A stretch of 37,800 nucleotides of DNA from the NCBI GenBank assembly GCA_030549855.1, contig JAUQQP010000043.1, positions 1 to 37,800 on the forward strand. The letters run 5' to 3'. This DNA comes from Cyanobacteriota bacterium SRBZ.bins.94.201705. GTDB lineage: Bacteria > Cyanobacteriota > Cyanobacteriia > Cyanobacteriales > Cyanobacteriaceae. The notes under the pieces were generated by a model that was not told where the DNA came from, did no database searches, and was given only the letters and a program-made list of their open reading frames with translations. Both the position numbers and the translations under genes were made by a program. Shown here piece by piece: positions 13,504-22,823 of the stretch; position 1 is the first letter of the stretch, and each line of letters starts with the position of its first letter.

Positions 13504-13742
13504 ATCATGTATTTTTTGTATTTTTCTGGCCCATGAACAATATAATATCAAAGCTGGTCCTAGGGGAAATACTGTTTAATATAAATTGCAATTACAAGCC
13601 GGCCAACTCCCTCATTTACACTCTTTTTTCCCCTTTTAGCTATCTCCTTTAATGCTTATTTCTATCAAATAAAAAGATGGCAAAAAACACCGCCGCAGCA
13701 ACATCCCCCCTGCCAACACCATTTTAGCCCATCCTAGCACGG

Positions 13743-19561: not shown

Positions 19562-20270
19562 ATTGCCCCGGTTTTGGTACTTCTAGGGGAATAGGAGTTA
19601 TAGGTTGAGTGGTGTTGTTTCTGATAGGCCTTGGTTCTTGATTCGGGTCCTTTATTGTGCTAGGATTGGGTATCAAAAATAGCACCACTGCCGCCGCTGC
19701 TAAACCCACAAACCCTAAAGTGGCCGGTGCACTCTGTTCCACCAGATTTGCCTCTCCTCTTCTATAATGTCTTGGTAGGGGCTTGACTTCATCCTGCAAC
19801 TGTGGTAGAGTGTAGGGGTCTTTTAGCAACTGGTCTAGGGTATCCAACAAGTCGAACAACTGGATTGTCGTTAGTTCCAATTGCCATTGTTTTTCCGGCT
19901 TATCCTTTTCTGGCTGCCATGTCAACAGGTGTCTTCTCCTTTCCTGGATGAAACTAAAACGGATATAGTGATTATTATCCCCAAATTCCACCGGGTGAGG
20001 CAAGCCACTTAGAAACTCTTGACAGTAAGCACTGGTTGCCCTTAACAAGTGTTCTAGGAATACTAATCCTCCCTGTAAAAGGGGATAGCCAACAATCTGT
20101 ACACTAGCCAGGCTTACCACAGACATGGTGGCCATCGCTTTCTGATTATTCTCCTCCTCCTCTTGGGCAAAACCCTGCAACGACAGAATACAATTGGGAG
20201 ACGTGTATACTCTTTCCATCAGACTACTCATGCCTGGATTAGGGTTATTTTTTCCTTGTTGCCCTACCAT
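19560..20270 (-). CDS. DUF4335-type cyanobacterial protein with C-terminal membrane segment
   Basis: A protein of about 236 residues that I recognise as DUF4335-like, a family confined to cyanobacteria with unknown function. Matching features are RVYTSPNCILSL near the start, ELTTIQLFDLLDTLDQLL in the middle, then LPRHYRR and, after a short linker, a hydrophobic segment APATLGFVGLAAAAVVLFLI followed by a proline-rich tail. One membrane anchor with the bulk on one side is implied. The ATG at 20270 is preferred because GGGAG lies six bases before it; the ATG at 20300 and a Met further in are alternatives. It is convergent with petH. Confidence 0.75.
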   Translation of the reverse strand: MVGQQGKNNPNPGMSSLMERVYTSPNCILSLQGFAQEEEENNQKAMATMSVVSLASVQIVGYPLLQGGLVFLEHLLRATSAYCQEFLSGLPHPVEFGDNNHYIRFSFIQERRRHLLTWQPEKDKPEKQWQLELTTIQLFDLLDTLDQLLKDPYTLPQLQDEVKPLPRHYRRGEANLVEQSAPATLGFVGLAAAAVVLFLIPNPSTIKDPNQEPRPIRNNTTQPITPIPLEVPKPGQ

Positions 20271-20304
20271 TATAACTCCCTGTGCCTCCCTCCTCCCCAT
20301 CCCC

Positions 20305-20334
20305 TTGACAAAACCCCCTTTTTTGTGCTATAAT
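20305..20334 (+). promoter_or_regulatory. Near-consensus sigma-70 promoter
   Basis: TTGACA (20305-20310) and TATAAT (20329-20334), both perfect, are separated by 18 bases. Transcription would start near 20341, yet no plus-strand gene follows for 2.4 kb. It overlaps the 5' side of the minus-strand DUF4335 gene. Confidence 0.7.
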
Positions 20335-20340
20335 GGTACA

Positions 20341-20440
20341 TAGGACGCAAAAAGGCGCCATATTTTCCCGGCAGGCGAGGGCCCTTTTAAAAAGGTCTGA
20401 GGACTGCTAAAACATCTGGGCAGCGCCCAAGTTAATTGAG
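20341..20440 (+). ncRNA. Candidate structured non-coding RNA
   Basis: Downstream of a strong promoter is a GC-rich stretch able to fold: GGCGC near 20354 can pair with GCGCC near 20423, enclosing a CCCTTTT/AAAAGG hairpin and a CTGC...GCAG hairpin, and GGGCAGCGCCC can fold on itself as an alternative. There is no protein-coding frame. I could not match it to 6S RNA, SRP RNA, RNase P RNA, tmRNA or the Yfr families from memory, and no T-run terminator follows it. The 3' end is a guess. Confidence 0.4.
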
Positions 20441-20625
20441 ATATAATATCAAATAGCAAAAGGTATAGAGAGATGCGGTAAGAGGGCGATTGTCTTGTTT
20501 AGTAAGGGTTATGAAATTATGAAAAGTTAGCCTTATTGTTAATAATTATCTTTTAAGGCAGGGAAATAACCTTATATCGTGGATTCTGAGTTTTACCTTA
20601 TGATGATTTATGAAATAAAATTGCA
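20441..20625. other. AT-rich spacer, nothing recognised
   Basis: AT-rich sequence with a second TATAAT at 20442-20447 lacking a -35. There is no open frame of note on either strand. Confidence 0.5.
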
Positions 20626-20658
20626 ATAAAAAAGTGCCCAGGTCCGCCCCTGGGAGTC
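20626..20658 (-). terminator. Intrinsic terminator of the M61 peptidase gene
   Basis: On the minus strand CCCAGG-GGCGGA-CCTGGG forms a six-pair GC stem, followed by CAC and TTTTTT. It lies about 105 bases beyond the M61 stop codon. Confidence 0.8.
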
Positions 20659-20763
20659 TCCCTACCTCCCGTCCATAATGCTATCGTAACATAAAAAGGG
20701 CGGCGGAGGAGGGATAAATTAAGAAATGTAAAAAAGAAAAATAAACATATCCCTAACCCCCAC

Positions 20764-22503
20764 CTAGGGAGTAAAACCAAGCCATTGTCGCAAATTCTCC
20801 TTTTGTCGCTGACTGAGACGTTTGCGAATCCTCACCTGATAATTGCCTCCTTGGGGAGAAGCCAAACAAACTTTGACTGTTTTGAGAATATCCCTTTGGA
20901 AGACAGTAACCTCAATGGAGTCGCCTACTTGATAGTCTTGCAACCTCTCCGAAAGAGTTTCTGCCGTAACCCTGAAGCCGTCTATGGCTAGTAACTCATC
21001 ACCGGCACAAATCCCCGCCTTCTCCGCAGGGGAATTGGCCTCCACAAAGGTGATTTTTTCAATACCTCCCTCCCTCTGCACATTTATCCCTAAATAGGGG
21101 GTATTATTTTCTGCTGGCAACGATTCTAAAATTAGACCGAATGGCTCAAAATACCTATTAAATGGCAATTCGGTGGTTGTGTCCAAATAGAGATGGAAAA
21201 ATTCTGATAAATCCTGGTTGGCTACCTCCCCAATTACCCCCTGTAACTCCTCGGGAGTAAAACCAATTTCCTCCCTCCCAAATCTCTCCCACATTATCCT
21301 CATTACATCGTCAAAAGATTTCGAGTTATTGTTGTTGTTTCTGATGATTAAATCCAGTAAAAGGGTTACCAATTCTCCCTTCAAATAGTAGGATATTTGG
21401 TTGTTTTTACTGTAAGCATCTTGCCTGTATAATTTGATCCAAGCATCAAAACTAGACTCAGACAAAGACTGAATTTTTCTCCCAGGAGTGGTTAAATATT
21501 TGGTAATTTCCTTGCTCAAAAACTCTAGAAATCTTGACAATCCATATATACCAGCCCTTAGGGGGATAAGCAAATCATAGTAGGTGGTTGTCCCTTCACA
21601 AAACCACAGGGAGGTAGTATAATTTTCTTGGTCATAATCGAATTTATCTAGGCCTTTTGGGCGGATTCTCTTCCCATTCCAAAGGTGGAAAAACTCATGG
21701 GCGACCAGCTGCATAAATTGATAGTACTTTTCCGGTTTACGAAACCCAAAACGGTGATAGTTTAAAACACAACAATTTTTATGTTCCAATCCTCCAAAGC
21801 CTTCCCCCGACAAATGCAGGATGAATTTGTATTCTGGATAGGGGAGACTCCCGAAGATTTCCGCTGCGGTTTTTATAATCTTCTTAGTGTCAGAAATAAC
21901 CCGGTTTATGTCGATGTTTCCTCTTCCCCAAATAACCCACTGATGAGGCTTTTCTTCTACAGTAAAATCATACACTTCCTGGAGGCCTATTTCAAAAGGA
22001 CTATCTACCAGTGTATCAAAATTTTCCGCCAGAAATGTGTTTTTGTCAGTGGCGGGGAGAGAGGTAGATACCCGCCAATTATTGGGAGGAGAAATATTCA
22101 CAACAATGGGATGATTTTCATAGTTTGGTATGTAAAAAAATAAGGCGGCACCGTTGAAAAATCCATGGGTAGCATCTAGGTGATTAGTCCTGACTGTTAA
22201 CTCGTTGCCATATACTTGGTATTTAACTATAATCTCATCACATCCTTCAGTGAATACCAGCCAGTGATTCTTCTTTATTTTCCGCCAGGCTAACTGTTTT
22301 TTGTTACAGGGGTTTATTGCCCGGAAATTTTGGACATTTCTACTATATTCTCTTATTAAATACGAGCCAGGAGTCCACACCGGCATCTTCAAATTCAATT
22401 GGTCATCTTCCCAATTACTCACCCTCAATTCCACCTCAAACAGGTGAGATTCCGGTTGGGGCATTGCCACCTTATAACTGATACCTATTTCCTTTTCTCC
22501 CAT
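20764..22503 (-). CDS. M61-family metallopeptidase with PDZ domain
   Basis: A 579-residue peptidase of family M61 (glycyl aminopeptidase type). The N-terminal half is a beta-rich domain with MPVWTPGSYLIREYSRNVQ, a block typical of the family. The zinc motif HEFFH with LWNGKRIRP follows at about 269-282, and the third ligand is in FCEGTTTYY (Glu about 303). A PDZ domain occupies about 475-565 (LGINVQREGG ... AGICAGDELLAIDG), likely for substrate recruitment. No signal peptide is visible, so a cytosolic location is suggested. The ATG at 22503 is used; an adjacent GTG at 22506 is possible. It has its own terminator downstream. Confidence 0.93.
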   Translation of the reverse strand: MGEKEIGISYKVAMPQPESHLFEVELRVSNWEDDQLNLKMPVWTPGSYLIREYSRNVQNFRAINPCNKKQLAWRKIKKNHWLVFTEGCDEIIVKYQVYGNELTVRTNHLDATHGFFNGAALFFYIPNYENHPIVVNISPPNNWRVSTSLPATDKNTFLAENFDTLVDSPFEIGLQEVYDFTVEEKPHQWVIWGRGNIDINRVISDTKKIIKTAAEIFGSLPYPEYKFILHLSGEGFGGLEHKNCCVLNYHRFGFRKPEKYYQFMQLVAHEFFHLWNGKRIRPKGLDKFDYDQENYTTSLWFCEGTTTYYDLLIPLRAGIYGLSRFLEFLSKEITKYLTTPGRKIQSLSESSFDAWIKLYRQDAYSKNNQISYYLKGELVTLLLDLIIRNNNNNSKSFDDVMRIMWERFGREEIGFTPEELQGVIGEVANQDLSEFFHLYLDTTTELPFNRYFEPFGLILESLPAENNTPYLGINVQREGGIEKITFVEANSPAEKAGICAGDELLAIDGFRVTAETLSERLQDYQVGDSIEVTVFQRDILKTVKVCLASPQGGNYQVRIRKRLSQRQKENLRQWLGFTP

Positions 22504-22760: not shown

Positions 22761-22823
22761 ATGCTGAAAAAAATAGCTTCTTTCCTGCAGAAAGATGTGA
22801 GGGGAATTGGTGAAAGTAAATAA
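22761..22823 (+). CDS. Short leader ORF overlapping the next gene
   Basis: A 20-codon frame, MLKKIASFLQKDVRGIGESK, with GGAGAGG ending a few bases before its ATG. It ends 14 bases inside the next gene, whose GTG is in the +1 frame. It could be a translationally coupled leader peptide or the true N-terminus separated by a frameshift. The amphipathic K-x-x-K-x-x-F-L pattern fits either. Function unknown. Confidence 0.4.
   Translation: MLKKIASFLQKDVRGIGESK

Follow-up and report, generated by a model that had tools for sequence, protein, structure and literature searches.

A genus-restricted, high-copy family of promoter-bearing hairpin elements, predicted to specify small structured RNAs, in two cyanobacterial genomes

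Several families of non-coding RNA (ncRNA) are present in multiple copies in cyanobacteria; those found in the literature have one to eleven members (PMC6778093, PMC5386190). Yfr2 is widespread in cyanobacteria, each genome having one to nine copies (PMC6778093, PMC5386190), and Ncr1265 of Synechocystis 6803 has 11 copies (PMC5386190). The Correia repeat enclosed elements of Neisseria exceed 100 copies and are mostly intergenic, with inverted repeats and associated promoters (PMC5039591). Here, a family of hairpin elements is described that was reached from a promoter at 20305-20334 of a 37,800-nucleotide (nt) stretch of Cyanobacteriota bacterium SRBZ.bins.94.201705 (contig JAUQQP010000043.1; this whole stretch is called the window). 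On balance, the elements are predicted to encode small structured RNAs, each transcribed independently, that form a very high-copy family restricted to one genus. This reading is carried by the promoters, the covariation of a hairpin termed P1, the copy number, the frequent conservation of position and the mostly non-leader context of the copies, which were observed in the genome of the window (G000, 2.87 Mb) and in the one other genome of the same genus examined (G001). No paper describing such a family was recognised in the open-access PMC literature.

When the window sequence was searched against 60 genomes, no genome beyond G000 was matched, and two further short matches were found in G000 itself. 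The match on contig 8 was a second copy with the same order of parts: CCCC-TTGACA, spacer, -10, and GGCAG-loop-CTGCC. With this copy as the query against the same 60 genomes, at least 14 matches were obtained in G000 and at least 14 in G001; outside these two the matches were weak, the best having an E value of 0.0107. All 28 matched copies contain the hairpin and 21 of them an exact TTGACA, and the spacers between -35 and -10 as well as the flanks look unrelated. A covariance model (R1) was trained on those 28 copies, with the window excluded. They had been found by BLAST, and their P1 was located by a script needing at least four of the five pairs, which all 28 passed; the early pair counts are biased accordingly. 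R1 recovered both copies present in the window, and the loci examined gave 83 copies in G000 and 45 in G001. A second model (R2) was built from all 128 copies. In whole-genome searches at E ≤0.01, R2 found at least 87 copies in G000 and at least 55 in G001.

Outside the genus, the best E value of R1 across 13 genomes was 0.088. R2 gave no match at E ≤0.01 in 194 genomes of the order, under stricter filters and with 24 candidates scored per genome, and its best E value with laxer filters was 0.125 in 38 relatives. The family thus appears, as found so far, to be restricted to one genus. Of the 83 loci searched besides the window, 20 that bear copies were scanned with Rfam; the matches were limited to tmRNA (two models), tRNA and TPP, and an element was hit by none of them. 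One tmRNA gene (L183, 4489-4876) is close to a pair of copies arranged tail to tail. Several copies lie less than 700 bases from contig ends (for example, G000 C2:141, C5, C16:90 and C19; G001 C35:20, C36, C52:213 and C7), which may reflect assembly trouble at these elements.

P1 consists of five covarying pairs, followed by a conserved G opposite K-A and by one covarying pair that closes a four-base loop. This extra pair joins positions 2 and 7 of the nine-base P1 loop. Over all 128 copies, these six pairs comprise 751 cells, of which 97.3% hold standard pairs. A change on both sides is seen in 121 cells, compared with 30.5 in shuffles, and none of 500 shuffles reached the observed value; in addition, the covariation was lost when the pairing partner was slid. 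In the 112 copies with a nine-base loop (the other 16 are omitted from this count), the loop pair is CG in 49, TA in 32, AT in 27 and other in 4, and the loop begins with G in 110 and ends with A in 111. In an unsupervised ranking by mutual information, the loop pair and one P1 pair were the strongest in both promoter subtypes described below. The alignments (A3-A5) were made to the model and lean towards P1; the loop pair, which is outside the R1 structure, still covaries. In A5, 12 of 125 cells lack this pair, a loss that misalignment of longer loops probably explains in part. For the nascent RNA, P1 is the fold of lowest energy in 108 of 123 copies, a count that omits five of the 128 copies with gapped arms or long loops, the plus-strand copy of the window included.

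The copies fall into two promoter classes: type A (62 copies) and type B (52 copies), with 14 assigned to neither. Class A tolerates one mismatch in the -35 and class B up to four in its box, and a few of the B calls have TTGACA-like boxes; among 2000 control windows from the same loci, 176 were A-like and 168 B-like (each below 9%). Type A is a consensus promoter of the sigma-70 type, with CCC-TTGACA, mostly an 18-nt spacing, and TGn-TAnnAT. TTGACA is exact in 60 of its 62 copies, the spacer is 18 bases long in 42, and G stands two bases before the -10 in 60. P1 begins 10-19 bases past the -10 in 43 of these copies, further away in 18 and nearer in one. The original prediction had called a perfect promoter, TTGACA-18-TATAAT, a rarity. 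The window promoter indeed matches at 12 of 12 hexamer positions over 20305-20334, with an 18-base spacer and TG one base ahead of the -10. In 375 kb of G000, chosen for containing family copies, the strict type A form (CCTTGACA, spacer, G-n-TAnnAT) occurs 35 times ahead of elements and twice elsewhere, and a looser form, TTGACA-17/18-TAnnnT, occurs 45 times at elements and 31 times elsewhere. A chance promoter was rejected because the strict form falls 35 to 2 at family elements.

In type B, a TTTACATTTCTTAA-like box stands upstream, and most copies also have an extended -10. In the 51 measured copies, the box is 43-45 bases ahead of the -10 in 33, and the distance from the -10 to P1 is 12-13 nt in 32. 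The exact TTTACATTTCTTAA box was counted 16 times in G000, 8 times in G001 and 0-5 times in each of 23 other genomes searched. According to PMC13421787, the HLR1 motif of RpaB is KTTACAWW-N2-KTTACAWW, and its activating position is about -66 to -45. The type B box begins with KTTACAWW and, counted from the inferred start, would span about -57 to -40, close to where HLR1 activates; its second half-site is only partly matched, and RpaB may bind here. With both types taken together, most copies have the promoter of their own that characterizes a trans-acting small RNA (sRNA) gene. Apart from the elements, an intergenic region of G000 contig C14 (L002, 1200-1790) contains several near-copies, in the reverse direction, of the CCCC-TTGACA-spacer part without P1, and R2 found no element there up to E 10.

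Downstream of P1, a C/G-rich stretch is followed usually by a T-tract and then by an AT-rich palindrome. A T-rich 6-mer is present in 99 of the 128 copies. The fold preceding the T-tract has -5.3 kcal/mol, compared with -3.9 kcal/mol in shuffles, and is better than its own shuffles in 69 of those 99 copies. The 5' arm of this terminator-like hairpin overlaps by sequence with the 3' arm of P1.

Comparison of the two genomes showed that 35 of the 83 G000 copies share a flanking gene, in the same orientation, with 33 of the 45 G001 copies. One shared flanking gene was sufficient for a match; two G001 copies each have two G000 partners, and the match of L161 with L232, at least, is doubtful. In the 33 syntenic pairs, identity is 92% and 88% in the two P1 arms, 68% in the T-tract, 69% in the AT palindrome and 32% in the flanks, the last compared without gaps. 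Where both species have a TTGACA-type promoter (15 pairs), identity is 98% in the -35, 48% in the spacer and 82% in the -10; the promoters were located here by the best consensus match, which inflates the values of the -35 and -10 and not those of the spacer or P1. Of the 190 pair cells in the 33 pairs, 17 changed on both sides and still pair, 9 changed on one side and still pair, and 6 involve a non-pair. The promoter subtype agrees in 32 of the 33 pairs. This pattern is interpreted as the trace of selection on the promoter and the hairpin, not of fresh transposition.

The window contains two copies in convergent orientation. The features of the plus-strand copy, which is of type A, are as follows.

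20305-20310, plus strand: -35 hexamer TTGACA, with CCCC upstream at 20301-20304
20326-20334, plus strand: extended -10, TGC-TATAAT, with the TATAAT hexamer at 20329-20334
20341, plus strand: approximate predicted transcription start, inferred from the promoter position, 7 nt past the -10
20362-20458, plus strand: predicted type A family element, a diverged copy (R1, trained without the window, E 6.2e-6; R2, whose training includes this copy, E 3.9e-8)
20370-20374, plus strand: P1 5' arm GGCAG, from the family model
20375-20403, plus strand: enlarged P1 loop, with the conserved G, a lone pair C20376-G20401 and the conserved GA at 20402-20403
20379-20383 with 20394-20398, plus strand: extra hairpin GGGCC/GGTCT replacing the usual four-base loop, from sequence and fold
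20404-20408, plus strand: P1 3' arm CTGCT, from the family model
20409-20435, plus strand: tail without a T-tract, from sequence
20436-20452, plus strand: AT-rich palindrome TTGAGATATAATATCAA, from sequence

The features of the minus-strand copy are as follows.

20719-20732, minus strand: TTTACATTTCTTAA box, HLR1-like, from sequence, with the HLR1 consensus taken from PMC13421787
20683-20688, minus strand: putative -10, TGT-TACGAT, placed by eye, 44 nt from the box start and 12 nt before P1 (the script picked TAGCAT at 20678-20683 instead, five bases further on)
20604-20678, minus strand: predicted type B family element, convergent with the plus-strand copy (R1, trained without this copy, E 8.6e-7; R2, whose training includes it, E 8.3e-12)
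20666-20670 with 20652-20656, minus strand: P1 GGGAG/CTCCC, from model and sequence
20649-20654 with 20637-20642, minus strand: terminator-like hairpin CCCAGG/CCTGGG, from sequence
20628-20633, minus strand: T-tract TTTTTT, from sequence
20608-20626, minus strand: AT-rich segment at the position of the family's palindrome

The P1 of the plus-strand copy begins 35 bases past the -10. The best match of the minus-strand copy among the G000 copies is the type B member of a pair on contig 14 (83% over 147 bases), and by its sequence this copy is a regular, intact-looking type B element. A further match of the model in the window, at 13646-13699 of the minus strand, is weak (E 0.065) and covers the tail only (T-tract and AT palindrome, without P1); it is possibly a remnant or a chance match.

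The fold that the original prediction had drawn, a multi-stem structure closed by GGCGC/GCGCC, was not supported: the closing stem is absent from the minimum-energy fold of 20341-20440, whose stability is that of shuffled sequences (z 0.03; 103 of 200 shuffles as good). The hairpin supported by the family is instead the pairing of GGCAG with CTGCT listed above. The transcript, far from being an orphan, has many sister copies, and its convergent partner on the minus strand had been overlooked. The proposal of a new small RNA with its own promoter has nevertheless kept its core, since the covariance and conservation checks gave compensatory changes and conservation in a relative; what it lost is the orphan status, the fold and conservation at the locus itself. 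The Rfam scan of the window gave no match at the gathering score, and lenient scans of the window stretch and of L003 gave sub-threshold matches only. Among these, a CRISPR-repeat-like score of 17 bits against a threshold of 35 was taken as a chance inverted repeat. A phage or plasmid origin, considered for one copy, was also discarded: no phage match was found, and two marginal plasmid matches (Borreliella, E 0.01, 42 bases) were taken as chance.

The promoter site is flanked by a gene for a DUF4335 protein (minus strand, PF14233) and one for an M61 glycyl aminopeptidase (minus strand, PF05299), and a gene for a likely ferredoxin-NADP reductase with a CpcD domain adjoins this locus. The relatives of the M61 protein identify the source of the window as a cyanobacterium. 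The DUF4335 gene probably starts near 20230, not 20300, because the matches in its closest relatives begin near residue 23-24 of the longest open reading frame (ORF). The next long plus-strand ORF downstream of the promoter begins at 22807. The claim that more than 2 kb are free of genes therefore holds for long ORFs; shorter plus-strand ORFs do exist (the longest of 120 amino acids, 21781-22143), antisense within the M61 peptidase gene, and were taken as spurious. A transcript from the plus-strand promoter would first meet the convergent element and afterwards, at 20764, the 3' end of the M61 gene. In G001, the corresponding two genes are about 90 bases apart and both window copies are absent. 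No clear target duplication was seen by eye when the window site was compared with this empty site.

The following mechanism is proposed. Transcription would begin just before P1 and stop at the T-tract, giving an RNA of approximately 55-70 nt. P1 would fold first on the nascent chain and then compete with the downstream terminator-like hairpin, and the RNA might be a switch. The RNA would act in trans, with P1 and its G.A/lone-pair loop most likely recognised by a protein and less likely by a small ligand, and the many copies would supply dosage. RpaB, and with it light, is proposed to switch the type B copies. In the window, a type A copy whose P1 loop is enlarged and whose T-tract is missing faces an apparently intact type B copy. 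Transcription itself, the ends of the RNA, the protein partner of P1 and the light control of type B are, in this scheme, predictions made from sequence.

Several points weigh against an sRNA family. The covariation of P1, taken by itself, would fit single-stranded DNA as well as RNA. Only two genomes are known to carry the family, and approximately 90 paralogous sRNA genes would be far above the published sRNA families found and would be a number typical of mobile repeats. By the scan, 14 of the 128 copies, 12 of them in G001, have neither promoter type. P1 prevails in the nascent RNA, yet in the full-length RNA its mean probability is 0.34, exceeding 0.5 in 40 of 123 copies; other pairings therefore compete with it. 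The terminator-like hairpin showed no covariation in the aligned copies, and the fold before the T-tract is only modestly better than shuffles. The window copies are not unusually stable (z 1.21 for the plus-strand copy and 0.18 for the minus-strand copy), and other copies gave z values of -1.0 to -1.7 (three copies) and 0.3 (the first contig 8 copy with its flanks). Finally, the plus-strand copy of the window has no T-tract, and G001, where the site is empty, lacks the window pair as a unit.

The main rival is an old, largely fixed mobile repeat with a promoter (like a miniature inverted-repeat transposable element (MITE), a Correia element or a REPIN), in which the hairpin would be a past recognition structure of a transposase and the tail-to-tail pairs its ends. 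This explanation is considered rather unlikely, although the copy number itself and the empty site in G001 agree with it, and the Correia elements also combine more than 100 copies with associated promoters (PMC5039591). The arrangement of neighbours points in the same direction: within 350 bp, G000 has 12 tail-to-tail, 4 tandem and 0 head-to-head neighbours, and G001 has 2 tail-to-tail. Three same-strand tandem copies with a spacing of approximately 275 bases are found in G000 contig C4 (L166, 2662-3289). An exact repeat of 113 bp (L217 1-113 and L189 2951-3063; G000 C16 and C19), which ends inside the P1 of two copies, could also be counted for a mobile repeat; it lies near contig ends and would represent a recent duplication, gene conversion or an assembly branch. 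However, among the 83 G000 copies with 400-base flanks, no near-identical recent copies were found beyond this repeat, and the other matches between loci are 75-97% identical over short stretches. Positions and promoter subtype are kept across species while the spacers decay, and the same hairpin is driven by two promoter types. Y1 transposase (Y1_Tnp) was matched in neither genome of the genus (5 of 14 control genomes positive), nor was reverse transcriptase (3 of 14 positive), and an origin from REPINs or retroelements was ruled out on this ground; these searches covered the two families and not other transposases. No transposase ORF was noticed beside the copies, whose flanking genes were not systematically annotated.

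A role at the level of DNA is improbable. In such a case, the promoter and the AT palindrome would be bound by a protein of the Fur family or a similar one, the element would act as an insulator or road-block between genes, and the RNA would be a by-product. A conserved segment, TGAnAAWWATTAKCAA, is present directly after the T-tract, and the palindrome at this place (A5 columns 82-102) resembles TGATAATNATTATCA, a Fur-box-like sequence. Scored against the Fur consensus as a 7-1-7 palindrome, it reached a mean of 11.3 of 16 matches, compared with 9.2 in letter shuffles of the same stretch. The tail-to-tail pairs would also suit this role, as would the rarity of overlap with genes (only 2 of the 83 elements share more than 30 nt with an ORF that is conserved in the G001 loci examined). 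On the other hand, the place is unusual for an operator, and a DNA-level role would not require P1 and its loop, where covariation is strongest.

A cis-acting leader or attenuator (riboswitch-like or 'actuaton'-like), with P1 as the antiterminator, would account for the overlap of P1 with the terminator-like hairpin and for its folding first in the nascent RNAs, and sRNA cassettes ahead of genes are described for Synechocystis (PMC5386190). As a general role it is very improbable and is rejected on gene orientation: with genes taken as mechanical ORFs of 100 amino acids or more, the next gene downstream has the strand of the element for only 28 of 79 copies (G000) and 19 of 43 copies (G001), and the plus-strand copy of the window has no sense gene downstream for more than 2 kb; a subset of copies could be leaders.

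The preferred reading thus remains a family of independently transcribed small structured RNAs. In its full form, which is put forward only tentatively, this would be the largest paralogous family of bacterial sRNA genes yet seen (approximately 90 per 2.9 Mb). It would have arisen in one lineage, half of it wired to the housekeeping sigma factor and half to a light regulator, with a protein that recognises one hairpin of five pairs with a G.A step and a lone, covarying loop pair. With nearly ninety members, a base-paired structure clearly under selection, promoter boxes that outlast their decaying spacers, and positions that often persist across the two species, such a family would be an extreme case of RNA gene amplification. 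The two related genomes allow single copies to be compared directly in their gain, loss and function, and the family would illustrate how RNA genes arise from a repeat or persist as one.

As far as the accessible parts of their descriptions go, none of the nearest kinds found (Yfr2, Ncr1265 and the Correia elements) has all the features tested here. REPINs are dispersed hairpins that occur singly or in inverted pairs together with RAYT (IS200/IS605-like) transposases. The present elements resemble them in being dispersed hairpins, single or in inverted pairs; they differ in that Y1_Tnp has no match in either genome and most copies carry a promoter. Yfr2 is likewise short, present in several copies per genome and at unconserved loci, with independent transcription, which is predicted here; the differences are the number of copies (at least 87), the restriction to one genus and the lack of an Rfam match in the stretches scanned. 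Ncr1265 of Synechocystis 6803 is similar as another multicopy cyanobacterial ncRNA. The Correia elements share the high copy number, the mostly intergenic location, the inverted repeats and the promoters. A shared terminal sequence of the Correia kind was not noticed among the copies, no systematic search for one having been made. In contrast to those elements, the copies described here are diverged, are often syntenic across species and have accumulated compensatory changes in their stem.
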